Origin: Kiritimatiellales bacterium
GTDB lineage: Bacteria > Verrucomicrobiota > Kiritimatiellia > Kiritimatiellales > Pontiellaceae
Assembly: GCA_003246265.1 (NCBI GenBank)
Contig: QKAU01000071.1
Coordinates: 1 to 43,884, forward strand
DNA length: 43,884 nt
Direction: 5' to 3'
In this document: piece by piece, positions 6,974-24,755 of the stretch
How positions within the stretch are numbered: position 1 is the first letter of the stretch
Layout of the letters: every line of letters starts with the position of its first letter
The notes under the pieces: model-generated
Database searches by the model: none
What the model was told of the DNA's origin: nothing
What the model saw: only the letters and a program-made list of their open reading frames with translations
Made by a program: the position numbers and the translations under genes

Positions 6974-7144
6974 CGGCGTCCTGCCGGACCCGCTGATTTT
7001 GATATACAACGTGTTGCGGGCGGCGTAGAAATGCGCCGTGAAAACACGGGGTTATGCGATCATGGTTTCGGCATTGGTGTCCGCCTTATGCCATGCCGCC
7101 GGTTCCGAAAAGAGTGGCTGTCCATGATACGGGAGGATGGTGCC

Positions 7145-9364
7145 ATGTGCGGGAACCGGGCTATTCGGCAGGTGGTGAATGGCTCCCATCGCTTGGGATC
7201 CGTTTCCGTTATCCTTTTTCTTACGCTTTCGGCGGCGGCCGCACAGCGGCACGAAACCTTTGCGGAGAATCCTGCAAAACGCGCCGTCGCGGTGCAACGT
7301 GCCAGGGAAAAAGCGCAGCGCGAGAAGGATGAGGCGAGGCAATGGGCGCAGGCACACGGCGCTCCCCTGCGATACGACGATGGCCAGCGGCTTATGGAGC
7401 TCATGGCCATCCGCCATGGCGTTCCCGTCTATTATGCAACGAAGAACCGGAATGCCGCGATTTCGACCGCGGCAGACCTGGTGCGCCAGTCGCCGCCGTT
7501 CCATGTCGATGGCGCCGGGCTGACGGTCGGCGTATGGGACGGGGGTTCGGTACTGACCACCCATCAGGAGTTTGGCGGGCGCGTAGCCAATCTGGATGGG
7601 GTGGCGTCGCATTACCATTCCACGCATGTCGGCGGCACGATCGGTGCAGCGGGGGTTGTCACCAATGCGAAGGGCATGGCGCCGGCCGTATGCATCGATT
7701 CGTACGATTGGGATGCGGACATTGCGGAAATGATTTCACGGGCGGCCGCAACGCCAGGCGAAACGAACGCTATCTACCTGTCGAACCACTCCTACGGAAC
7801 CATCGGTGGGTGGACCTGGCGGCTGGGTGGGAGTACGTACTATTATTGGCCCTATTGGTTCGATTTCGGGCCCGGCGAGGTGGACATCTACTTCGGCCAG
7901 TACGATGCCGGTGCCGCGGATTACGACCAGGTGGTTTACGATGCACCGTATTTCCTCCCGTTTGTTGCGGCCGGCAACGACCGTTCCGACAATCCCGCAA
8001 ACGGCGAAACCGTGGTTTGGGGTGAAGTGAAAGGGAACAAGATCATACTGTGGCATTCCGTCGTCTACGACGACACGCTGCATCCGCCCGGCGACGGCAT
8101 CTACAAGGGCGGTTACGACAACATCAGCGCCGAAGCCACCGCCAAGAACATCATGACCGTGGGGGCCGTGGCCGATGCGGTGAACGGCAATCTGCGGTCG
8201 ATCGCGAACGCTTCGAACCTCTATTTCAGCAGTTGGGGGCCGGCCGACGACGGGCGCATCAAGCCGGACATCGTGGCGAATGGATGGCAGCTCTACTCCT
8301 GTTTCGATAGCTCGAATACCGACTATTACGCCATCTCTGGAACCAGCATGGCGACACCCAACGCATCGGGTTCCGCCTTGTTGCTGGTCGACTACTACGG
8401 CCGGCGGTTTCCGGGCATGGCAATGCGGGCCAGCACGCTAAAGGGATTGATCATCCACACGGCGGACGACCTGGGAAATCCCGGGCCCGACTATTCCAAC
8501 GGATGGGGTTTGATGAACACCCTGGCAGCCGCCGAGCTGGTCAAGGACTATGCCGATGGAAACGCGGTGCGCCTGACCGAAGGGGTGCTTTCGCCGACCA
8601 ACGCGACCGACTCGCTCGTCTGCTACAGCGACGGATCGGAGCCGATTCGTGCAACGTTGTGCTGGACCGATCCCCCCGGTCCGGAGCAGGCGACGCATGA
8701 CAGCAGGACCCCCGTGCTGGTCAACGATCTCGATCTCAAGATCGTCGGGCCGGATGGAACGAATTATCCCTATAGCATGGACTACGATCACCCAACCTCC
8801 AACGCTACCACGGTGACGAAAAACGATACCGACAACGTGGAACAGGTCTATCTCGCGGCCCCGTCCGCCGGCGAGTATACGATGATCGTCGACTACGACG
8901 GCCCGTTGCAGGATGGGGGGCAGCGCTATTCCCTGCTGGTCAGCGGCCTCTCTACCAACGTGGCTCCCGCCAATCCCGATCTGGATGGGGACGGCCTGCC
9001 GAACGAGTGGGAACTACGCTACTATGGCGGCCTGACTAACGGCATGCCAGGCGAGGACACCGATGGCGACGGGGCCAACAACAGGAGGGAATACATCGCC
9101 GGCACCGATCCCACCAACCCCGCCTCCTTCTTTGCCATCACGGCGTTCGGGACGGGCTCCTCCACCGGTCCACCGGTCCACCTTGCCTGGGGGCCGGTGA
9201 TCGAAGGGCGCAGCTACGCCGTTGGGTGGAGCACGAACCTTGCGGAGACGGTTTTCACCAATGTTTCCGGCGTCCTGGCCTATCCGGCCGGCAGCTATAC
9301 CGATGCAGTCGAGCATGCCGGCATGGGTCATTTCTACCAGGTGGAAGTCCATCTCGCGCCCTGA
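7145..9364 (+). CDS. Secreted KP-43-like subtilase (S8), paralogue 2
   Basis: Exported serine protease, 739 residues, same architecture as the gene at 2090. ATG 7145 is preferred to 7031 and 7124 because GGGAGG lies 8 bases upstream and the hydrophobic signal follows (SVSVILFLTLSAAAAQ). Triad: Asp132 (VWDGG), His158 (HSTHVGGT), Ser401 (SGTSMATP). The pro-region repeats the family pattern (ETFAENPAKR, ELMAIRHG, YYATKNRNAAIS). The KP-43-type beta domain (VNDLDLKI, DNVEQVYLA), Ca loops from about 612 (DLDGDGLPNEWE, DTDGDGANN) and the terminal module (PAGSYTDAVE ... FYQVEVHLAP) are all present. Parts of its catalytic domain are nearly identical in DNA to paralogue 1, which suggests a recent duplication or conversion. 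Confidence 0.93.
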   Translation: MCGNRAIRQVVNGSHRLGSVSVILFLTLSAAAAQRHETFAENPAKRAVAVQRAREKAQREKDEARQWAQAHGAPLRYDDGQRLMELMAIRHGVPVYYATKNRNAAISTAADLVRQSPPFHVDGAGLTVGVWDGGSVLTTHQEFGGRVANLDGVASHYHSTHVGGTIGAAGVVTNAKGMAPAVCIDSYDWDADIAEMISRAAATPGETNAIYLSNHSYGTIGGWTWRLGGSTYYYWPYWFDFGPGEVDIYFGQYDAGAADYDQVVYDAPYFLPFVAAGNDRSDNPANGETVVWGEVKGNKIILWHSVVYDDTLHPPGDGIYKGGYDNISAEATAKNIMTVGAVADAVNGNLRSIANASNLYFSSWGPADDGRIKPDIVANGWQLYSCFDSSNTDYYAISGTSMATPNASGSALLLVDYYGRRFPGMAMRASTLKGLIIHTADDLGNPGPDYSNGWGLMNTLAAAELVKDYADGNAVRLTEGVLSPTNATDSLVCYSDGSEPIRATLCWTDPPGPEQATHDSRTPVLVNDLDLKIVGPDGTNYPYSMDYDHPTSNATTVTKNDTDNVEQVYLAAPSAGEYTMIVDYDGPLQDGGQRYSLLVSGLSTNVAPANPDLDGDGLPNEWELRYYGGLTNGMPGEDTDGDGANNRREYIAGTDPTNPASFFAITAFGTGSSTGPPVHLAWGPVIEGRSYAVGWSTNLAETVFTNVSGVLAYPAGSYTDAVEHAGMGHFYQVEVHLAP
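8336..8366 (+). repeat. 31-bp identical patch shared with paralogue 1
   Basis: Base-identical partner of 3218-3248, at the active-site serine of the second subtilase. The third paralogue (about 10629-10660) is clearly more diverged here. Confidence 0.8.
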
Positions 9365-9434
9365 CGGTGCCGCACCGGCCGGGAGTGAATGTTGCGGGCC
9401 GGAGGATGGTCTATGATGGAACCGGACGGTTCGC

Positions 9435-11639
9435 ATGGCACGATTATCGGGCATCCTTGGATCGATGGGCGGTTTCCGCACCCCGGCAACCGCCTGTGCG
9501 GCGTTGTACCTGCTGTCTGCATCGGTCCGCGCACAACGGCCCGAAACCTTTGCAGAGGATCCCGGACGCCGGAAGGAGGCTGTCCGGGCGGTGCGGGAGC
9601 GGGCGGCGCAGCGCAAGGCCGAGGCGCGCGAGTGGGCCCGCCGGCACGGCGTTCCGATGCGCCACGAAGAGGGCGAGACCGTTTTCGAGCTCATGGCGGT
9701 CGAGGAGGGCCGACCGCTCTTCTACACCACCCTGAACGCGAACGCCGCCATTTCCGCCGCGGCGGACCGGGTGCGCGACACCGCCCCCTTCAACGTGGCC
9801 GGGCAGGGCGTGACGGTCGGGGTGTGGGATGCGGGGCTGGTCTGGACCAACCACCAGGAGTTCGGCATCCGCGTGGCGATCTCCAACGCCAATTCGTACG
9901 GGAACTACCACTCCACCCATGTGGGCGGGACGCTCAATGCGGCCGGCATCGCCGCCGCGGCCAGGGGGATGGCGCCCCAGGCGAGGATTGATTCATACGA
10001 TTGGAACTACAACGACGCCGAAATGGTCGCGGCGGCCGCGGCGGCCCCGGATGAACCGGGCCGGATCTATCTTTCCAACCACTCCTACGGCATCCTGGCG
10101 GGCTGGTCCTACTTCTATTGGACCAATCCCTACACGCGCCAGTCGGGCTACCACTGGTGGGGCAACCTCGAGACCGAGAGCACCGAGGAATATTTCGGCC
10201 AGTACGGGTACGGCGCGCGCGACTGGGACGAGATCGCCTACGGCGCGCCCTACTTCCTGCCCTTCAAGGCGGCCGGCAACGAGCGCAACAACAACCCCGT
10301 GGACGGCGAGCGGATCTTCTACACGAAGGACAACGGCTCCACCTGGACCAACACCCTCTACGACTCCACCATCCATCCCCTCGGCGACGGCCTCTACAAG
10401 AACGGCTACGACACGGTGCCCTACTACGGCAATGCCAAGAACATCGTCACGGTCGGCGCGGTTTCCGATGCCGTGGCCGATGGCGCCCGCGCCCCGGCGA
10501 ATGCCCTTGCCGCCGACTTCACCAGCTGGGGTCCCGCCGACGACGGGCGCATCAAGCCGGATCTGGTCGCCAACGGCACGGAGCTGGTTTCGTGCAATAT
10601 CGTCGCCACCAACTCCTACGCCTCACGCAGCGGCACCAGCATGGCTACGCCCAACGCCTGCGGTTCGGCCGCGCTGCTGGTCGATTATTATGGCCGCCGC
10701 TTCCCGGGGCAGGCCATGCGCGCGAGCACCCTCAAGGGATTGCTGATCCACGCGGCCGACGACCTGGGCCGTCCGGGGCCAGACTACCAGTATGGATGGG
10801 GCCTGGTGAATACGCGCGCGGCGGCGGAACTGCTGAAGGAATATGCCGATGGCAACGGCATCGCGCTGGCCGAGGCGGTGCTGGATGGCGCAACCCCTTC
10901 CCGGTCGTACACGGGAATCTCCTACGGCGACCTGCCGGTCCGCGCCACCCTCTGCTGGACCGATCCGCCGGGCCCGGCAACCTATGCCCACGACAGCCGA
11001 ACCCCCGTGCTGGTCAACGACCTGGACCTGAAGATCACGGGACCCGACGGCACCCACTACCCCTTTTCGCTCAGCTATGCCGACCCCGAAGCCGTCGCGA
11101 CCGCAACGGGGGAGAACCATGTGGACAATGTCGAGCAGGTCGTCATCGCGCTTCCGCGACCCGGCACCTACACCATCACCGTGGACCATGACGGCACGCT
11201 CCTGGGGGGGCTCCAGCATTTCTCCCTGCTGGTGGGCGGGTTGGCTTCCGATGGCGATGGCGACGGCCTGCCCGACCTGTGGGAAAACACCTATTTCGCC
11301 GATCCCGCCGGCGCATTCCCGGCAGGGGATGCGGACGGCGACGGCATGGACAACGTTTCCGAGTTCATCGGCGGAAGCGATCCGACCAACCCCGATTCCG
11401 TCTTCGGGTTCGCCTCGGCCTACCTGCTGCCTTCGGCCGGACATCCCCCCTTCGTGGTGGAATGGACGCCGCTGCCCGGTCGCCTCTACCGGATCCATTG
11501 GACCTACAGCCTCCAGTATGTCCCGTTCGAGCCGATCTCCGGGATCCTCCCATGGCCGGTCAACAGCTATACCGATGCCGTCGATCGTGTCGGCGATCCG
11601 GGATTCTATCGCATTGACGTGCGCCTCCGCACGGACTAG
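9435..11639 (+). CDS. Secreted KP-43-like subtilase (S8), paralogue 3
   Basis: Exported serine protease, 734 residues. Triad: Asp132 (VWDAG), His159 (HSTHVGGT), Ser402 (SGTSMATP). Layout is signal peptide (ATACAALYLLSASVRAQ), pro-region (ETFAEDPGRRKE), catalytic domain, KP-43-like beta domain (VNDLDLKITG), Ca loops from about 606 (DGDGDGLPDLWE) and the terminal module (NSYTDAVDRVG ... FYRIDVRL). The start is uncertain. ATG 9435 has only a weak GGACGG upstream; ATG 9465 is an alternative. A much better Shine-Dalgarno/ATG pair (GGAGG at 9401, ATG 9413) matches the start region of paralogue 2 but lies in another frame. It is the most diverged and most GC-rich of the three copies. Confidence 0.9.
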   Translation: MARLSGILGSMGGFRTPATACAALYLLSASVRAQRPETFAEDPGRRKEAVRAVRERAAQRKAEAREWARRHGVPMRHEEGETVFELMAVEEGRPLFYTTLNANAAISAAADRVRDTAPFNVAGQGVTVGVWDAGLVWTNHQEFGIRVAISNANSYGNYHSTHVGGTLNAAGIAAAARGMAPQARIDSYDWNYNDAEMVAAAAAAPDEPGRIYLSNHSYGILAGWSYFYWTNPYTRQSGYHWWGNLETESTEEYFGQYGYGARDWDEIAYGAPYFLPFKAAGNERNNNPVDGERIFYTKDNGSTWTNTLYDSTIHPLGDGLYKNGYDTVPYYGNAKNIVTVGAVSDAVADGARAPANALAADFTSWGPADDGRIKPDLVANGTELVSCNIVATNSYASRSGTSMATPNACGSAALLVDYYGRRFPGQAMRASTLKGLLIHAADDLGRPGPDYQYGWGLVNTRAAAELLKEYADGNGIALAEAVLDGATPSRSYTGISYGDLPVRATLCWTDPPGPATYAHDSRTPVLVNDLDLKITGPDGTHYPFSLSYADPEAVATATGENHVDNVEQVVIALPRPGTYTITVDHDGTLLGGLQHFSLLVGGLASDGDGDGLPDLWENTYFADPAGAFPAGDADGDGMDNVSEFIGGSDPTNPDSVFGFASAYLLPSAGHPPFVVEWTPLPGRLYRIHWTYSLQYVPFEPISGILPWPVNSYTDAVDRVGDPGFYRIDVRLRTD

Positions 11640-13658: not shown

Positions 13659-15662
13659 CTAGGCGATCCCCGGCACCTCGACCTCGTCGACCGGGCATTC
13701 GTCGACCGATCCAAGGAAGAGGCGCCCGTACCAGTGCGACCGGACCCGGCTGTCGAGGATCGTTACCGTTCCCCGGTCGCTGGCGCTGCGGATGAGGCGT
13801 CCGACGCCCTGCCGGAACTTCAGCACGGCTTCGGGCAGGGAGTAGTCGCGGAACGGATTGCCGCCACGCGCCTCGATCGCCTCGAAGCGGGCTTCGATGA
13901 GCGGGTGGTCGGGCACCGCGAAGGGGAGCCTTGTGATGATGACGTGGCTGAGCGCCTCGCCCTGCACGTCGACCCCCATCCAGAAGCGGTCGAGCCCGAA
14001 CAGCACGCCCGCCTGGTGGCCGCGGAAGATCTCCAGCATGCGCTGCGGCGGCATGCCCGTGCCCTGCACGAGGACGCCGTAGCCCTCGTCCTCGAAATCG
14101 CCCTTGAGCGCATCGGCCACCTTGCGCATGAAGCGGGCGTTGGTGAAGAGCACGAAGGCCCGGCCCCGGCCCTCGATCACAAAATGGCGGATCGCATGGG
14201 TTGCGGCCTTCTCGAACGTGTCGGCGGAGGGCGGCGGCATGTTGGACGCAAGCTGGAGGCGCATCTGGCGCCCGTAGTCGAACGGCGATCCCACCTGCAG
14301 CTCGTGGCAGGCCTCCGCGCCGATGCGTTGACGGAAATAGGCGAGGTTTTCGCCGACCGCGAGCGTGGCGCTGGTCATCACCACGCATGGGATCGTCTCG
14401 AACAGCATTTCCCGCAGGATGGGGCCGACGTCCACGGGGGCCGAATAGAGCACCGGCAGGCGGCGGCGCCCCTGCGTCTCCACCCAGTAGACATGGCCGG
14501 CCAGCGACTGCCGAAGGAACGACTCCACCGTATCGCGCAGCTCGATCCCCCGGCTGCGCAGGCTCCTGATCTCGGCCTGCAGGTCGGCGCTTTCCGTGGT
14601 TTCCGCCAGGCCCTTGAGGTGTTCGCAGAGGCGGGTGATCCTGGCGGCCAGGTCGGTCTCGATGGGCGGCGGCGCATGGACGCGCTGCTGCGTCTTTTGC
14701 GGGCCGAGCTTGAAGTGCGCGCGGACCGCCTCGAAGAAGCCGTCGGCGGATTCGCGCACCTGGTCCGCCCCGAGGGCGCCCTGGCCGTCCTTGAGCAGGG
14801 TGCAGAGCCCGCGCTGCTTCTCGGAGTGGATGCGCCGCAGCCAGTACTCGAGCTGGTAGAGCGAGAGGCGGAGGCCAAGGTGCGAGGAGGCGACCTGCTC
14901 CATCTGGTGCGCCTCGTCGAAGACGACGTGGCCGTAGGGGGGGAGCATGGCGGCTCCCTCGGCCCGCAGCGCCAGTTCCGCAAAGAAGAGGGCGTGGTTG
15001 ACGACCAGCACCTGGGCGTCGTGCATCTCCTGCCGGGCGTTGATGTAGTAGCACTCCTTGTAGAACGGGCAGCGCTTTCCGGTGCAGTTGCCGTGCTCGG
15101 CGCAGATGGCGCTCCAGACCTCGGGATCGGGCTGCTCCCCGAGTTCCTGCAGGGAACCGTCGCCCAGCTGCCGGTTCGAAGCAAGGGCGTGGATGGCGTC
15201 GAGCTGCCGCGCCCGGGCATCATCGAACAGGTCGCCGCCGCCGCGCCGAGCCCGTTGCAGGCGCAGGAGGCAGAGGTAGTTCGAGCGGCCCTTGACCATC
15301 ACCGCCTTGACCTCGCGGCCGAGTGCGCGGCAGACGAAGGGGATGTCCTTGTGGATGAGCTGCTCCTGGAGGGTGATCGTGTAGGTGGCGATGACGCAGC
15401 GCGTGTCGTGCTCCAGCGCCGCGAGGATCTGCGGCACCAGGTAGGCGAAGCTCTTGCCGACCCCGGTCCCCGCCTCGACCGCCAGGTGGTGGCCGAGGGT
15501 GGCCGCATCCGCCACGGCGCGCGCCATCCGCTGCTGCTGCGGCCGGAGCTCGAACGCGATCCCGCCTTCCGCGCAATGCCGCTCCAGCACCCCGCCCGGC
15601 TCGAAAAAGCGGTCGGTGGCCTTGGCCGCTTCGGGCGGCGGAGTTGGATCGAGCGAGATCAT
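13659..15662 (-). CDS. dinG: DinG/XPD-type Fe-S DNA helicase
   Basis: ATP-dependent 5'-3' superfamily 2 helicase, 667 residues, expected in DNA repair or in resolving unusual DNA structures. Walker A is AGTGVGKS (about 64-71), the Walker B/DEAH box is VVFDEAHQM, and motif VI is QGVGRLIRS near the C-terminus. Four cysteines match the 4Fe-4S ligands of DinG-family enzymes: one in GRSNYLC, then GNC, KRC and KEC with spacings of 5 and 6 residues. The start at 15662 overlaps the stop of the tetrapyrrole fusion gene upstream (ATGA, 4 bases), so translation is probably coupled. There is no exonuclease domain. The DinG/YoaA subfamily cannot be settled by eye. Confidence 0.92.
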
Positions 15663-17767
15663 TCGGCGATCGTCTGCGAAACGCAGAACTCGGCCAGCGA
15701 CCGGATGGCGCCGGGGATGGTCGATTCGCGGGCCACGATGCCGGGCGCGAGGCCGTGCCGCTCCATGGCGCGGGCGGTGGGTTGGCCGATGACGACGGAG
15801 GTTTTCCCCTTCAGCGAATCCGCGCCCCACTGCGCGACAAACGAATCGACGCCCGAGGCGCTGGCGAAGAAGGCGACATCGAACCCGGGCAGCTCTTCGT
15901 GGTCGACGCGGACATTGTCGTAGATGATGGCATCCTCGACCGCCGCCCCCGTGCTGCGCAGGGCCTCGGCCAGGTCGGTCCCGGCCTTGTCGGACCGGAC
16001 GCGCAGGACGCGGTCGCCCGGCTTCAGCAGCGCATGCGCGAGCTCGACCAGCGCCTCGGCGCTGAACGAGCCGCCCGGCTGTGCGTCGACGCGGATGCCG
16101 TATTCCGCAAACTCGTCGGCGGTGCCGCGCCCGCAGACCATGATCTTCGGGATGGAGCGGTAGTCGGGCTTCTGGTCCTCGACGAGCTGCATCAGGGCGC
16201 GGACGGAAGAGGGCGAGGTTACGGCCAGCCAGTCGTACTCCTCCCACCGCAGCGGGAAGGCGCGGCGGCACTCCAGCCGGATAAGCGGGTAGGGCAGGGG
16301 CTTTCCGCCGTAGTCGACCACGGCGTCGACCGCCTTCTGCTGGATCGCGTCGGAGCAGGTCAGCAGCACCCGTTGCCCGCGCAGGGCGCCGAGATCGGTC
16401 GCGTAGGCGTAGGGAACAACGTCTCCGACGATGATCAGGCCGGGCCGCTTCGTGGAGAGGCTGGCGGCCTCGCCGGGCAGCCCTCCGATGGTGGTCTTGA
16501 CCACCGTTTCGTTATCGCCGCCGGCGTTGAAGACCAGCGCGGCGGGGGTTTCGGGGGCGTGTCCGTCGTCGATCAGCTGGCGGGCGACGGTATCGATCGC
16601 CTTGATCGACATGTAGTAGAGCACCGGCAGGAGATCCTTCATCGCGGCATCGCACCGGGCCAGGCCGCCGCCGTGGACGCGCGGGGTGAGGACGACGAAG
16701 CCGCGGGAGACATCGCGCCGTGTCAGCAGCATGCCGGTTCCGGTGGTGGCGGCCTGGAGGGCGCTGACCCCCGGGATGACGCGGAATGGAATACCCAGGG
16801 CGGCCAGTGCATCCGTCTCCTCGGCCAGGCGCCCGAAGATGCCCGGGTCACCCCCCTTGAGACGCACGACGCGCCTGCCCTGCCGTGCGCATTCGCAGAT
16901 GAGCCGGGTGGTTTCGTGCTGCTCCTTGCTATGCGCCCCGCACCGCTTGCCGACGTCGGTCGCCATGGCGTGCGGCGGCAGCTCGTCGAGCAGGAGGGGA
17001 TCGATGAGCGAATCGTGGAGGCAGAGGTTGCAGCGGCGCAGGGCGTGAAGTGTCGCCAGCGTGCAGTTCTGCTTCGAGCCGACGCCGGCCCCGGCGAAGG
17101 TGACGGCCTGCACGAAGAGGTTGCGCAGGGCCATCATGCGCCGGTCCCCTTCGCGGAAGGTGACGGCGAGGTAGCCCTGGGCCTCGGGAACCTCCAGCTC
17201 CTCCAGCGGGATCCACGACGTGATCCGCTTCTCCAGGCCGAGGCGGTTGAGGGCCGCACCCGCCATGATGACGACGTCGAAGTCGCCGCGGTCGACCTGT
17301 TCGATCCGTTCGCCGATGTTGCCCCGGATGGTCTTCTGGACGGCCTGCGGGAAGGTGCGTGCGCAGTAGGCGGCGCGGCGCTCCGAACTTACTCCGACCA
17401 TGGGGTTGGAAGGCAGGTCCGCGATGGTGCGTCCCGGGGCCAGGATGAGCGCATCGCGCGGCTCTTCGCGCCAAGGGAGCCAGAACCAGTCGATCCCTTC
17501 GGGCATGGGGGCGGGGAGGTCCTTGGCGCTGTGGACCGCGAGATCGATGGCACCGCCCCGCAGGGCGTCGTCGAGCTCGCGGGTGAAGAAGTCGGCGGGG
17601 CTGTCGCGCAGATCGGTGGTGCGGTCGGCATCGCCGACCGAGGCGATGGGCACCATCTCGAAGGCGATGCCGACAAGCATGGATTCGATGCGGTCAAGCG
17701 CATCGCGCGACTGCGTCAGGGCGAGTTGGCTGGGGCGTGTTCCGGCACGCAGCATAAGCGGTTCCAT
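15659..17767 (-). CDS. HemC-CobA-HemD fusion; HemC part lacks domain 3
   Basis: A 702-residue tetrapyrrole fusion. Residues 1-220 are hydroxymethylbilane synthase domains 1-2: [20 protein letters not shown] (Asp83, equivalent to catalytic Asp84 of E. coli), RGNIGERI and AGAALNRLG. It then passes straight into a uroporphyrinogen-III methyltransferase (about 221-455: [35 protein letters not shown]) and a uroporphyrinogen-III synthase (about 460-702: [29 protein letters not shown]). The usual HemC third domain with its LEGGC cysteine, which carries the dipyrromethane cofactor, is absent. The methyltransferase GAGPGD loop has become GAGVGS. ATG 17767 is chosen over an upstream TTG; ATG 17755 is also possible. 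The gene overlaps dinG by 4 bases. The family calls are firm; HemC activity is uncertain. Confidence 0.9.
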
Positions 17768-17840
17768 GGGCGCAAACTCTACCGGTTGGAGCCACAAATG
17801 CAACGCGGGGCGCGGGACATTTGGGGGTGGCCGATCCCGC

Positions 17841-19378: not shown

Positions 19379-20875
19379 CTAGGCCTGGACATCGCCATTT
19401 TTGAAGCTTCCGGCGATCCTGCCGTAGAGGTCGCCGTGGTCGGCGACGATGCCTCGGCTGCGGGCAAGGATGGTGGTCATGTCGGCCAGCTCGCGCCGGT
19501 ACCAGTACTTCAGGTCGTCGAGGTCCACCACCTGGACATCGGTCGACAGGCCGTCGAGCTCGGGATCGATGTTCCGCGGCATGCCCAGGTCGAGGACGAT
19601 CACCGGTCGCTCCTGGTTGAAGAAGGGGGCGTGGCCGATGTGCAGCAGGTGCCCGGGCGCGTCGGCGGCGCTGACAATGAAGTCGGCCTCGGTGATCCGG
19701 TTCTTCATGTCGTTGAAGGTGCAGAGTTCAATCTTTCCGCCATGGCCCTCGGGCAGCGCGGGCTTGTTGACGTGGTAGCACCAGACGATCTTCGCCGCCT
19801 TGGGGAGGCTGTCCTTGACGAGTCCCGAGCCGATCATGCCGGTGCCCAGCACCATGACGGTCGATTGCGCCAGGTCGCGGCCGTTGGCCTCGAGGTAGCG
19901 CACGGCCAGGTCCTCGATCTCGCAGCTGTTAAGCAGGGGGGCCACCTGGTTCTTGATCGACTTGGAGACGTGCAGTGCATTGGAGATCCACTCCTGGACC
20001 ATGTTGCCGGCCCAGCCCCGCTGCTTGGCGGTTTCCAGGGCCTCCTTGATCTGGGCTGTGATGTGGTTCTCGCCGGGCGTCTGGGAGAGCATTCCGGCGG
20101 TTACGAGGCACAGGTGCTCGAACGCCTCCGGGCCGGTCTTGAGGTAGAACTTGTCCTCCTTGAGATGGGTGAAGCCCATGATGTGGCGCAGGATGCCGTT
20201 GCGGGCCGTCTCCTCGGAGACCGCCGCGATCACCTCGACGCGGTTGCAGGTGTTGAGGACCATGAACTCGTGGATGCCCCACAGCTGCATGATCATGAAG
20301 CCCGCGCGCTCGAAGCGGGGGCCGGTCAGGTGGAACGGCTCGCGCTCTTCGACCGTCAAGTGGTTGTGGTCGGTCCCGACCACGACGAGGTGGGCCGACT
20401 CCATCATCCGCAGGTGGCGGGCGAGGCTGTTCTTGACCATCTTCGACTGCCGACAGTCGTTGCCGCCAGAGGAGACGGCGAGCGTCAGCTGGTTGTGGCG
20501 GGTGATGGCGGGGGTGGTGAAGTCGCTGTCGGCCCAGTTGCCATCCACGCAGCAGCAGGGCACGCCCCGCTCGCGGCAGGCTTCAAGGATGCCGCGGTTG
20601 GCGCCGCGGCTGTTGGTGGCGGCGAAGACCAGAGTCTGCCCTTCAGCATCGCCGGGTTCGAACTTGCGGGCGGCGTGCCCGACGGTCCGCGTATCGACGA
20701 GCGGCGCCAGTTCTTCGCACACCTCGGGGCTGACGACCGACACCTGCGCACCGGCCTCGAGCAGCAGCTGGATCTTCCGCAGGGCCACCTTGCCGCCGCC
20801 GGCCACCAGGCATGGACGTCCGGCGACGAGGAAGGTGATGGGAAGTCCGTTACGCAATTGCTTTTCCTTGGTCAT
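19379..20875 (-). CDS. SirC-HemA fusion: precorrin-2 dehydrogenase plus glutamyl-tRNA reductase
   Basis: A 498-residue fusion of two tetrapyrrole enzymes. Residues 1-160 are an NAD-binding precorrin-2 dehydrogenase/sirohydrochlorin ferrochelatase-type domain (LVAGGGKVALRK, VSVVSPE, FAATNSRGANR, Asp111 in CVDGNWADSDF, LAVSSGG). Residues 163-498 are glutamyl-tRNA reductase: VVVGTDHNHLTVEERE, catalytic Cys210 in NTCNRVEV, GENHITAQIKEA for the usual GESQILGQVK, a nucleotide loop VLGTGMIG and VLDLGMPRNIDPEL. It stops about 50 residues after the PRNIDPEL motif, so most of the C-terminal dimerisation domain is missing. ATG 20875 is chosen because the SirC homology starts right after it. It supplies glutamate-1-semialdehyde and acts again at precorrin-2, both ends of the siroheme branch. 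Confidence 0.92.
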   Translation of the reverse strand: MTKEKQLRNGLPITFLVAGRPCLVAGGGKVALRKIQLLLEAGAQVSVVSPEVCEELAPLVDTRTVGHAARKFEPGDAEGQTLVFAATNSRGANRGILEACRERGVPCCCVDGNWADSDFTTPAITRHNQLTLAVSSGGNDCRQSKMVKNSLARHLRMMESAHLVVVGTDHNHLTVEEREPFHLTGPRFERAGFMIMQLWGIHEFMVLNTCNRVEVIAAVSEETARNGILRHIMGFTHLKEDKFYLKTGPEAFEHLCLVTAGMLSQTPGENHITAQIKEALETAKQRGWAGNMVQEWISNALHVSKSIKNQVAPLLNSCEIEDLAVRYLEANGRDLAQSTVMVLGTGMIGSGLVKDSLPKAAKIVWCYHVNKPALPEGHGGKIELCTFNDMKNRITEADFIVSAADAPGHLLHIGHAPFFNQERPVIVLDLGMPRNIDPELDGLSTDVQVVDLDDLKYWYRRELADMTTILARSRGIVADHGDLYGRIAGSFKNGDVQA

Positions 20876-20927
20876 GACCGGGTAATTCCTATCAGGTTGC
20901 GCCTTCCCAGGCGATGCAAAACCGCAA

Positions 20928-20956
20928 AACATAGGCGCAGGGCCGGGGGATGTAAA
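20928..20956 (-). promoter_or_regulatory. Candidate promoter of the sirC-hemA gene
   Basis: On the minus strand TTTACA (20956-20951) and TATGTT (20933-20928) are separated by 17 bases, about 50 bases before the start codon. Close to sigma70 consensus. Confidence 0.5.
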
Positions 20957-21040: not shown

Positions 21041-21793
21041 ATGGACCTGTTTGCCTCCATGCTGGTTTCGCTACCGGCGGCCGACCTTGCCAGCGCATTT
21101 TGGGAAAGCACGCTTTCGGGCAAGGCGATCGTCATCCTCCTGTTCCTCGGATCGGCCGGCGCCTGGACGATCATGTGGACCAAATCGCTCCAGCTCAAGT
21201 TTGCGCGGCGCATGACCGAGGAGTTCCTCGAGGCGTTCCGGACCGAACGCAATCCCACGGCCCTCTTCACCCGGCGCGAGGAGTATCCCGGCTCCCCGCT
21301 CAACGCCATCTACAAGGCTGGCTGCAACGCCCTCGGCGGCGAGCTCCAGGCCCACGGCATCGATCCCGACGACCTGCTCATGGGCGACATGACCTCCGGC
21401 ACGCAGCGCCGCCTGACGCTCAACCAGCTCGAAACCCTCCGTTCGGTCGTCGACCGCAACGTGGCCGACGAGGCGCTCGGCCTGGAGGACCAGATGGGCA
21501 TGCTCGCCACCGCCGTCAGCGCGGCGCCCTTCCTGGGGCTGCTCGGCACGGTCTGGGGCGTGATGGATGCCTTCAGCGGCATGGCGCAGTCGGGCAACGC
21601 GGCCCTCTCCGCCGTGGCGCCGGGCATTGCCGGCGCCCTGCTCACCACCATCATCGGCCTGGTGGTCGCCCTGCCGTCGATGGTGGGCTACAACATGCTC
21701 TCCGCCCAGATCCGGCGGCTGGCCGTCCAGATGGACAACTTCGCCCAGGAGTTCGTCTCCGGCATCCAGAACACCTATGTGATCGAGGCGTAA
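21041..21793 (+). CDS. tolQ: TolQ proton-channel protein (MotA/TolQ/ExbB family)
   Basis: Inner-membrane stator of the Tol-Pal system, 250 residues, which uses the proton gradient to act on TolA and keep the outer membrane attached during division. One membrane segment lies near residues 28-46 (IVILLFLGSAGAWTIMW) and two more in the conserved domain at about 147-225 (LGLLGTVWGVMDAF; GIAGALLTTIIGLVVALPS). The family motif GLLGTVWG is intact. AAAGGG precedes the ATG. tolR follows after 3 bases. Length and gene order fit TolQ better than ExbB. Confidence 0.93.
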   Translation: MDLFASMLVSLPAADLASAFWESTLSGKAIVILLFLGSAGAWTIMWTKSLQLKFARRMTEEFLEAFRTERNPTALFTRREEYPGSPLNAIYKAGCNALGGELQAHGIDPDDLLMGDMTSGTQRRLTLNQLETLRSVVDRNVADEALGLEDQMGMLATAVSAAPFLGLLGTVWGVMDAFSGMAQSGNAALSAVAPGIAGALLTTIIGLVVALPSMVGYNMLSAQIRRLAVQMDNFAQEFVSGIQNTYVIEA

Positions 21794-21796
21794 CCC

Positions 21797-22204
21797 ATGG
21801 CCCGCCGCACCAGCATCGTCTCCCTCAACCAGATCAGCGACATCAACATGACGCCGCTGATGGACCTGACCTTCATCCTGCTGATCACCTTCATCATCAC
21901 CTTCCCGCTCATCGAGCAGGGAATCGCGATCAACCTGCCCAAGGGGTCGGCGGCCGACATGATGGAGAGCAAGACGCGCTCCATCAGTCTCAACATCGAG
22001 AAGCAGCTCTACCTCGACGATGTCCGCGTATCCCCCGATGAACTGGCGGCGGCGGTGATGGATATCGGCACGTCGTCGCCTGACACGGTGATCTACGTCC
22101 GTGCCGACCGCAATCTTCCCTATGGCGAGGTCGTGGCGGTCATGAAGATGCTACACGACGCCAACATCACCAAGATGGCGCTGGTTACGGAGGCGGAGCA
22201 GTAG
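21797..22204 (+). CDS. tolR: TolR (ExbD family)
   Basis: A 135-residue stator partner of TolQ with one membrane helix (about 21-40, [21 protein letters not shown]) and a periplasmic domain. The proton-relevant aspartate is in the conserved [12 protein letters not shown] segment. The C-terminal part ([26 protein letters not shown] in family terms) is typical of ExbD/TolR. It lies between tolQ and tolA with gaps of 3 and 2 bases, so the three are co-translated. Confidence 0.93.
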
Positions 22205-22206
22205 GC

Positions 22207-23007
22207 ATGGATTCCCTGGGGCGCAGGATATCCGTACGGGTGCTGGCGATCCATCTGGCGGTCGTCGCGGTCCTGCTGCTCGCTTCGGCCCTGCGCGGCT
22301 GCTTCCGGCCCCGGCCGAAGCCGGAGATCGTCACGTTCATCGAATTCGGCCAGCCGGCGGAGCCGGTGGCGCTTCAGGAGGTGTCTAAAATGCCCTCGCC
22401 GGAGCCGGAAACCCCCTCGCTGGTCCCCGAACCCAAACCCGTGCCCAAGCCTACACCGAAGCCGGAACCGAAACCCATTCCCAAGCCCGAACCCAAGCCT
22501 ACGCCGAAGCCGGAACCGAAACCGGCCCCCAAGCCGGAGCCCAAGCCCACCCCGAAACCCGAACCGAAGCCGGAACCCAAGCCCGAGACGAAAAAGAAGT
22601 ATGTCGATCCCAAGGACATCAAGATCGGCAAGACGGTCGGAGCGGAGGAGACGAAGCCGGCGCTTTCGAAGAAGGAGATCCAGCAGGCCCTCTCGGGCAT
22701 CGCCAAAACGACGGGACCCGTCGGCAATCCCGACGAGATCGCCGCCTATATCGGGCGGGTCGGCCGCTATTTCGACAGCCGCTGGACCCCCCCGGCGTCC
22801 GGGGGCTCCGCCAGCCGCCCGGCGGTGGTCCGGATCACGATGCGAAAAAATGGCGTGATTACCGGGCGCCAACTGATCCATAGTTCGGGCGATCCCGAAT
22901 ACGACCGTACGGCGATGGCGGCGGTCAACGCCGTCGGCACGGTGCCGGAACCGCCGGCCAGCTACCCGTACGACTATGTCGAGGTGGAGTTCCGGCTCAA
23001 CAACTAG
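22207..23007 (+). CDS. tolA: TolA-position protein with a TonB-type C-terminus
   Basis: A 266-residue energy transducer linking TolQR to the periplasm. It has an N-terminal membrane anchor (about 13-33, [18 protein letters not shown]), a Pro/Lys/Glu-rich spacer (about 75-130, units KPEPKPTP), a short charged part, and a C-terminal TonB-like domain (about 178-266: [37 protein letters not shown]). The spacer and C-terminus resemble TonB more than the helical linker of enterobacterial TolA, but position in tolQRABpal supports TolA. A TonB paralogue recruited to the locus is the alternative. Confidence 0.85.
22431..22587 (+). repeat. Pro-Lys-Glu coding repeat in tolA
   Basis: Imperfect 12- and 18-base units encode KPxPKP repeats, a periplasm-spanning rod as in TonB. 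It is prone to copy-number slippage. Confidence 0.85.
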
Positions 23008-23031
23008 GACCTTCTGCTTGGAGATGATGGA

Positions 23032-24216
23032 ATGAAGAGAAGCATGCTTTTCGGATTGGCGCTGCTGGCGGCCTGTACCGCATGGAGCCAGCGCGCCGTG
23101 GTGACGAAGGAGGGCGAGGGGAAGATCGGCATCAACCTCGGGGCCTACCAGACCGGGGGCGACGGCGCGTCGCGCACCTTCCTGGCGGTCCTCAAGGCGG
23201 ACCTGAACCGCTCGGGCTATCTCACGGTGGTCTCCTCCGGCGGCGAAGTGGCCGTGGTGGGGCGCTGCGTGCCGGGCGGCGGGCAGCTCGTCGCCGATTG
23301 CCAGGTCTACCAGACCGCCACGCGCCGCAGCCTGCTGGGCAAGCGCTACAACGCCCCCGAAAACAGCGCGCGCGGCCTGGCCCACCAGGTGGCCGACGAA
23401 ATCATTTTCGCCGTCACCGGCAAACCCGGCATGGCTTCGGGCAAGATCACCCTTGTGGGCAACCGGACCGGACGCAAGGAGATCTACATCTGCGACATGG
23501 ACGGGCAGAACATGCGGCAGGTCACCAGCGACCGCAGCATCGCCGTGGGGCCGCGCTGGACGCCGGACCTCCAGAACCTGACCTATACCTCCTACAAGCG
23601 CGGCTACCCCAACGTCTTCATGACCGGCCGCGCCAAGCCGCTCTCCAGCTACGGCGGCCTCAACGCCAGCGGGGCCGTATCGCCCAACGGCAAAAGCATG
23701 GCGCTCATCCTCTCGAAGGACGGCAACCCGGAGCTCTACGTCATGGGCCTGGGCTTCGGCGGCGGGCTCGAGCGGCTGACCCGGACCCGCCAGTGCGAGG
23801 CGAGCCCCTGCTGGTCGCCCGACGGCAACCACATCGTCTACGTCTCGGACTCGTCGGGCACGCCGCAGATCTACATCCTGCCGCGGCAGGGCGGGCAGCC
23901 GATGCGGCTCACCACCTCCGGCACGGAGAACGTGGCGCCGGACTGGGGCAAGAACGGCTACATCGTCTACAGCAGCCGGGTGGGCGGCCGCTACCGCATC
24001 ATGATCGCCAATCCCGTCAACCGCACCGTGCGGGAACTGGAGACCGACTGGGCCGACTACGAGGATCCGAGCTGGGCGCCGGACGGCCGCCACATCGTCT
24101 GTTCGCGCACCTCCGGATACCGTTCCTCCATCTACCTCCTTGACACCCAGAAAGATTCTCCTATACCGTTGGTTTCAGGTTCGGGCGATTGGTATTCGCC
24201 TTCATGCTCTCCATAA
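23032..24216 (+). CDS. tolB: TolB periplasmic beta-propeller
   Basis: A 394-residue Tol-Pal component. The N-terminal domain (about 21-135, VVTKEGEGKIGINLGAY ... GRCVPGGG) is followed by WD40-like TolB propeller blades (GRKEIYICDMDGQN, LTRTRQCEASPCWSPDGN, IYILPRQGGQPMRLT, SWAPDGRHIVCSR). The N-terminus MKRSMLFGLALLAAC contains LAAC at Cys15, which could be a lipobox; cleavage after AWSQ by signal peptidase I is the alternative. E. coli TolB is soluble. GGAG lies before the ATG, and tolA ends 24 bases upstream. Confidence 0.93.
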   Translation: MKRSMLFGLALLAACTAWSQRAVVTKEGEGKIGINLGAYQTGGDGASRTFLAVLKADLNRSGYLTVVSSGGEVAVVGRCVPGGGQLVADCQVYQTATRRSLLGKRYNAPENSARGLAHQVADEIIFAVTGKPGMASGKITLVGNRTGRKEIYICDMDGQNMRQVTSDRSIAVGPRWTPDLQNLTYTSYKRGYPNVFMTGRAKPLSSYGGLNASGAVSPNGKSMALILSKDGNPELYVMGLGFGGGLERLTRTRQCEASPCWSPDGNHIVYVSDSSGTPQIYILPRQGGQPMRLTTSGTENVAPDWGKNGYIVYSSRVGGRYRIMIANPVNRTVRELETDWADYEDPSWAPDGRHIVCSRTSGYRSSIYLLDTQKDSPIPLVSGSGDWYSPSCSP

Positions 24217-24236
24217 AAGAATCGGGGTATGTAATT

Positions 24237-24755
24237 ATGTGCAAGATGGTTGTGAAGTCGTTGTTCTTCGTTGCGTTGGCAGGTTCGCTGGCCCTCACGG
24301 GCGGCTGCAAATCCAAGAAAGCCAACTCGGCCGACCTCTACGGCTCGGGCGGCAACCTCTACGGCGATCCGCTCATGGGCGACGTGCCGCTCAACGACAC
24401 CATGGGACTGCCCGCCGATGGCGACCGCAGCATGTTCCCCCCGGTTTACTTCGCCTACGACAGCTCGCAGGTGAATCCCGAGGAGGCGGGCAAATGCGAC
24501 CAGGTGGCCCAGTACCTCAAGAAGGGCAAGGGCGGCGTGATCGTTGAAGGCCATGCCGACGAGCGCGGCAGCCGCGAATACAACCTGGCCCTGGGCGAGC
24601 GCCGCGCGCTGGCCGTCCGCGACTACCTCATCAGCCTCGGCGTCAACCCCTCCGTCATCCAGACCAAGAGCTATGGCGAAGAGATGCCGGAAGACATGGG
24701 CCACGACGAGGGGGCCTGGCGCATGAACCGGCGCGCCGTCTTCGCGATCTACTAA
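24237..24755 (+). CDS. pal: Pal peptidoglycan-associated lipoprotein
   Basis: A 172-residue outer-membrane lipoprotein that binds peptidoglycan and TolB. ATG 24237 gives a lipoprotein signal with lipobox LTGGC (Cys24); the frame is open back to 24189 but that extension is unlikely. A low-complexity linker (about 25-80) leads into an OmpA-like domain (about 80-172: VYFAYDSSQVNPEE, VEGHADERGSREYN, GERRALAVRDYL) with the diaminopimelate-binding region. It is the last gene of the operon and is followed by an intrinsic terminator. Confidence 0.95.
   Translation: MCKMVVKSLFFVALAGSLALTGGCKSKKANSADLYGSGGNLYGDPLMGDVPLNDTMGLPADGDRSMFPPVYFAYDSSQVNPEEAGKCDQVAQYLKKGKGGVIVEGHADERGSREYNLALGERRALAVRDYLISLGVNPSVIQTKSYGEEMPEDMGHDEGAWRMNRRAVFAIY

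Follow-up and report, generated by a model that had tools for sequence, protein, structure and literature searches.

The dipyrromethane that hydroxymethylbilane synthase (HemC) builds for itself and binds through a cysteine is regarded as essential to the enzyme. In Escherichia coli HemC this cofactor is borne by C242 in domain 3, which comprises residues 222-313, and enzymes with the R131L or R132L substitution bind no cofactor and are inactive (PMC3945110). Canonical HemC thus requires the cofactor, a point that counts against a cofactor-free reading of the proteins described below, and all solved HemCs matched in this work have domain 3.

Here we analyzed a gene in a 43,884-nucleotide stretch of DNA (the window; contig QKAU01000071.1 of assembly GCA_003246265.1, from a Kiritimatiellales bacterium) that encodes HemC, CobA and HemD parts in a single chain (Table 1). 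The open reading frame is uninterrupted over its whole length from the ATG, and starting instead at the TTG at 17803 would lengthen the protein by 12 aa. In a Pfam search PF01379 matched residues 6-212 along profile positions 1-206 of 207, followed by CobA at 222-430 and HemD at 482-688, and PF03900 (domain 3) had no match in the 702-aa fusion. The NCBIfam model TIGR00212 (hemC) covered it over profile positions 1-212 of 293 only. Both the CobA part (TIGR01469, 193.8 versus 185 bits) and the HemD part (PF02602, 127.3 versus 27.5 bits) passed the curated cut-offs. An AlphaFold2 model of the fusion (pLDDT 88, pTM 0.86) superposed with its HemC part on E. coli 1pda over 214 residues (2.2 Å, Z 21.6, chain range 3-226), with its middle on CysG/SUMT and with its end on HemD (4es6); the 1pda superposition shows domains 1 and 2 in full and no domain 3. 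Since CobA begins at residue 218, the whole of domain 3 is gone and nothing else, and the HemC part ends exactly at the domain 2/3 boundary. The original prediction, in which HemC homology passed straight into the methyltransferase, domain 3 and its cysteine were missing and the catalytic Asp and Arg residues were retained, was therefore correct on each of these points, with D83 (E. coli D84) and R11, R130, R131, R148, R154 and R175 all in place. It had also pointed to an altered methyltransferase loop, GAGVGS, which is indeed present but is not a sign of dysfunction, since the loop varies across the clade (GAGVGS, GAGVGD, GAGVSN) and CobA scores above its cut-off.

Table 1. Features of the fusion gene and of the related gene nearby, in window coordinates.
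Feature	Coordinates	Strand	Basis
HemC (domains 1-2)-CobA-HemD fusion, 702 aa, ATG start	15659..17767	-	ORF, Pfam, NCBIfam, AlphaFold2 model
HemC domains 1 and 2 (residues 6-215), complete, catalytic residues all retained	17123..17752	-	PF01379, 1pda fold
Asp59, diagnostic lid residue of short HemCs (E. coli Gly60 position)	17591..17593	-	alignment
Asp83, catalytic aspartate (E. coli Asp84)	17519..17521	-	75/75 short, 67/67 canonical
Glu153 (E. coli Thr154 position), second short-HemC signature site	17309..17311	-	alignment
Junction at expected start of domain 3 (E. coli 222-313, Cys242), CobA directly after	17114..17122	-	
CobA, uroporphyrinogen-III C-methyltransferase, residues 218-454	16406..17116	-	TIGR01469, CysG/SUMT fold
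HemD, uroporphyrinogen-III synthase, residues 464-700	15668..16378	-	PF02602, 4es6 fold
Met8-type precorrin-2 dehydrogenase fused to glutamyl-tRNA reductase HemA	19379..20932	-	PF13241, PF05201, PF01488

The original prediction had left room for a complete second HemC in the genome, for a sequencing error hiding domain 3 and for another protein supplying the domain, and it had proposed a genome search for a stand-alone HemC or PF03900 and an alignment of homologues. The genome (3.0 Mb, 96% complete) yielded one PF01379 in a profile search and neither a stand-alone HemC nor PF03900 above cut-off; the best PF03900 hit (E 0.29) lay in an unrelated ORF, and a chance match resembling it, at the same profile positions, was seen in a second genome (G124). 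A broader domain-3 profile of 18 sequences, which recovers every full-length canonical HemC, had no match in this genome, and no domain-3-like ORF of at least 40 aa was found at the window locus. The alignment produced 26 further HemC-CobA-HemD fusions with an identical junction from independent assemblies, which, together with the lack of a nearby domain-3-like frame, rules out a sequencing error or frameshift. Gene decay as the cause of the missing domain was also rejected. The idea that another protein supplies the domain found no support in the profile searches of this genome or of those described next.

To define the distribution of such short, domain-3-less HemCs, we drew 145 genomes of the phylum and called short and canonical forms with a profile made from canonical C-termini. 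PF01379 was present in 89 of the 145, and 37 of these 89 had the short form, namely 32 from the window's class, in which 33 genomes carry HemC, plus 5 from outside it. Scores of the HemC tails on the domain-3 profile were bimodal (at most 4.1 bits for short, at least 35 for full-length canonical HemCs), with the exceptions of one broken gene in between and two frameshifted canonical genes, L115 and L141, which were rejected as short HemCs. None of the small ORFs of at least 40 aa near true short HemC genes encodes domain 3, and PF03900 exceeded its cut-off in none of the 37 phylum genomes and in none of 22 genomes elsewhere with a short HemC. The latter have one HemC locus apiece, except for one genome with two short HemCs. 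Among the class genomes drawn, only G059 (L022/L067) has a canonical stand-alone HemC with domain 3, which may have replaced the short form.

A contig scan placed short HemCs also in Lentisphaerota (Victivallis), Omnitrophota, Bacteroidota (Bacteroidales), Spirochaetota and candidate division WS1; we note that most of the sequences are derived from MAGs. The fused architectures were HemC-CobA-HemD, HemC with a degenerate CobA and HemD, HemC-HemD, and HemA-HemC, and stand-alone short HemCs of ~220 aa were found as well. In one Omnitrophota locus the stand-alone short HemC is flanked by HemA and CobA-HemD; HemB comes after these, along with a class-III aminotransferase that is HemL by context, and a PAPS reductase lies upstream. 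Another Omnitrophota locus pair, L119 and L149, belongs to a single genome (G165) and consists of two different short HemCs, a CobA-type fusion and a HemA fusion, so that some copies may have other roles. Among 28 HemC-bearing Bacteroidales genomes, 4 had fusion-size frames (672-737 aa) with low scores and most others had frames of ~310 aa, as judged by frame length only; the short form is thus patchy there, possibly through horizontal spread. The second architecture of the window's class (L041, L044, L046, L047, L054, L056 and L065) has a GCPAD-like CobA loop. L041, the sole member of this group that was scanned, fell below the CobA cut-off (150 versus 185 bits); siroheme reductases are nonetheless present in the genomes of the group. 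Three HemC-HemD fusions without CobA (L043, L039 and L048, in G020, G007 and G053) come from genomes of one family without a siroheme reductase (PF01077), which suggests heme-only use, and L039 is adjoined by HemA, HemB and a class-III aminotransferase.

We next compared domains 1-2 of 75 short and 67 canonical HemCs. In a quick PMSF tree a single branch separated all 75 from the 67 (SH-aLRT 97), so that what the original prediction had read as one unusual protein is a cross-phylum clade with signature residues of its own. R11, S13, Q19, K83, D84, R132, R149, R176 and Q198 (E. coli numbering) are invariant in all 75 short proteins, and R155 is kept in 74. Gly60 at the lid base is replaced by Asp in 74 of the 75, as opposed to 0 of 67 canonical HemCs, and Thr154 by Glu, Gln or Asp in 62 of 75 versus 0 of 67; Lys59 is lost, and the lid motif reads DFFTRELD in the window as against GKGLFTKELE in E. 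coli. Conversely, Arg101, Arg131 and Asn151, fixed in 67/67 canonical HemCs, occur in 29, 55 and 32 of the short ones, respectively. E. coli Arg101 aligns with human Arg116, which forms a salt bridge to Glu250 of domain 3 (PMC10577081), and E. coli Arg131 binds the cofactor (PMC3945110). The relaxed residues face domain 3 or the cofactor, and the overall pattern of gains and losses fits an enzyme adapted to domain-3 loss. Two Thermoplasmata HemCs, L117 and L126, also have odd lids (APADFTD and SPDFTD), with domain 3 still present.

From these sequence data we consider it reasonably probable that the clade is a working hydroxymethylbilane synthase without the cysteine-linked dipyrromethane cofactor. 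If dipyrromethane were still bound covalently, it would have to sit on another residue, either a different cysteine of HemC or of the fused CobA, or a non-cysteine side chain, for instance that of Asp59. Candidates for this are a Cys shortly after the junction, in the loop GAGVGSxxxCT, in 22 of 27 HemC-CobA-HemD fusions, a Cys at the E. coli Ala172 position, next to the cofactor site, in 10 of 10 proteins with the degenerate-CobA or HemC-HemD architecture, and the nearly universal Asp59 itself. However, no cysteine column is common to the short HemCs, the best within domains 1-2 being occupied in 24 of 75, and six lack Cys throughout domains 1-2. The CobA cysteine is ruled out as a universal anchor by the stand-alone and the Cys-free members, and an ester to Asp would be chemically labile. 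L104, a stand-alone short HemC of 228 aa on a 99.9-kb contig, has no cysteine at all; its genome has a single PF01379 and no PF03900, and structure prediction gave two confidently folded domains (pLDDT 89.5). The L104 chain therefore cannot carry a thioether-linked dipyrromethane, and its starter, judging from the sequence, must be held otherwise or be unneeded. The lack of a clade-wide cysteine, together with this protein, supports the earlier suggestion that the primer is held differently, and we regard a covalent link to another residue as unlikely.

A second alternative is that the HemC part is weak or vestigial, with hydroxymethylbilane (HMB) formed by slow chemistry or with the domain serving only as a scaffold that binds porphobilinogen (PBG). 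The loss of a universal primer domain points in this direction, and PBG can oligomerise without an enzyme. Yet the catalytic residues are invariant, stand-alone short HemCs occur within full siroheme operons, and the HemC part is constrained at least as much as CobA and HemD, the HemC region being conserved more than the fusion protein as a whole. Within the genus, where it could be computed, HemC dN/dS was ~0.05-0.15, a rough value given that dS was high to saturated. The window's own genome retains HemB, HemE (above its cut-off) and a siroheme reductase, with no further HemC. HemB was found in 36 of the 37 short-HemC phylum genomes and was absent from every HemC-less genome except one; siroheme-dependent reductases were found in 33 of the 37, and neither was found in the 14 genomes of the class that have no HemC. 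Co-occurrence, conservation and dN/dS argue for a functional HMB synthase, and purifying selection, the invariant catalytic residues and the HemB/siroheme association argue for a working enzyme over the only partly active one that had been considered at first; a weak or vestigial HemC thus appears quite unlikely. We regard it as highly improbable that domain 3 comes from a separate, diverged small protein missed by the profiles, for while PF03900 is weak on diverged domain 3s (some canonical phylum HemCs reach only E 1e-4 to 0.02), the broader profile that finds all full-length canonical HemCs finds nothing in the window's genome, no matching ORF of at least 40 aa lies near short genes except the two frameshifted canonical genes, no such extra gene was recognised in the whole Omnitrophota siroheme operon around the stand-alone short HemC, and the residues facing domain 3 are relaxed.

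Taken together, the comparisons suggest that the short HemC is a working enzyme that is probably self-primed or uses a non-covalent primer. Domains 1 and 2 would form the catalytic cleft as before, and the invariant Asp84/Arg/Lys set would activate PBG units and link them head to tail. The growing chain would be kept in place without a covalent bond by R11, K83, S129, R132, R149, R155 and R176, which bind carboxylates. The starter would most likely be PBG itself, giving aminomethylbilane and then hydroxymethylbilane, or else a dipyrrole bound without a covalent link, which may still sit at Arg131 given that this residue persists in 55 of the short proteins. Battersby and co-workers reportedly treated the enzymic transformation of aminomethylbilane in 1982 (reference 7 of PMC8698207). 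Two gained acidic residues, Asp59 of the lid and Glu153 next to R155, might offset the lost domain. Asp59 stands two residues ahead of the Phe equivalent to E. coli F62, which stacks on R11 in simulations (PMC3945110), and a role in lid closure or in handling the incoming PBG is therefore plausible. In the window protein, the fused HemD and CobA could channel the unstable product on to uroporphyrinogen III and precorrin-2, and the HemA-Met8 fusion, 1.6 kb off, would carry the pathway on to siroheme. On the stronger proposition, that the clade across phyla starts its chain on PBG or a non-covalent dipyrrole with no covalent primer whatever, so that an anchored cofactor is not universal for uroporphyrinogen, we are evenly divided. 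If true, a natural enzyme without the domain and the cysteine would reveal the minimal chemistry of tetrapyrrole assembly and would bear on the origin or loss of the self-made cofactor. Its small (~220 aa) forms would suit mechanism and engineering studies, and pipelines that demand PF03900 would overlook the pathway in short-HemC lineages.

The Met8-HemA fusion belongs to the same pathway as the HemC fusion (siroheme, ALA supply), with the Met8 part in front of HemA. Its HemA has GlutR_N and NAD domains and no dimerisation domain, TIGR01035 matching only positions 2-324 of 416, and a dimerisation domain was likewise not seen in the HemAs next to or fused with short HemC in L095, L125, L149 and L039. 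With this domain absent from the HemAs and domain 3 from the HemCs, these lineages seem to have shortened both early enzymes. Elsewhere in the window, two neighbouring and closely similar subtilase genes (7031-11639, + strand) encode secreted-looking proteins, the first with a TSP3 calcium-binding repeat, and a full Tol-Pal-like cluster (21041-24755, + strand) comprises ExbB/TolQ, ExbD/TolR, a TonB-like protein, a TolB-like PD40 protein and OmpA/Pal.

Among known systems, the 241-residue hydroxymethylbilane synthase model NF002202 (PRK01066), whose family we take to be chlamydial, is likewise too short for domain 3, and short HemCs have in this sense already been catalogued. Stand-alone short HemCs scored 205-217 bits against it, reaching position 236 of 241; the window's protein (124.7 bits) and the five relatives scanned (best, 216.9) all fell below its cut-off of 251 bits. 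A search of the open literature, which leaves most subscription journals outside its scope, returned no paper discussing the missing HemC domain 3 or testing an enzyme of this kind, and no functional data on NF002202. Canonical HemC (E. coli 1PDA, TIGR00212) and the window HemC are alike in domains 1-2, the catalytic Asp and the Arg/Lys set, with ~35% identity to 1PDA over 214 matched residues, and they differ in that the window protein has no domain 3, no Cys242-type anchor and the lid DFFTRELD. By its sequence, the short HemC belongs to the PF01379 family but lacks two defining features of the dipyrromethane enzyme, domain 3 and the conserved Cys. With CobA-HemD and CysG fusions the window protein shares ordinary CobA and HemD parts, fusion being a known habit of siroheme/B12 genes; unlike them, it carries a HemC, minus domain 3, fused in front.
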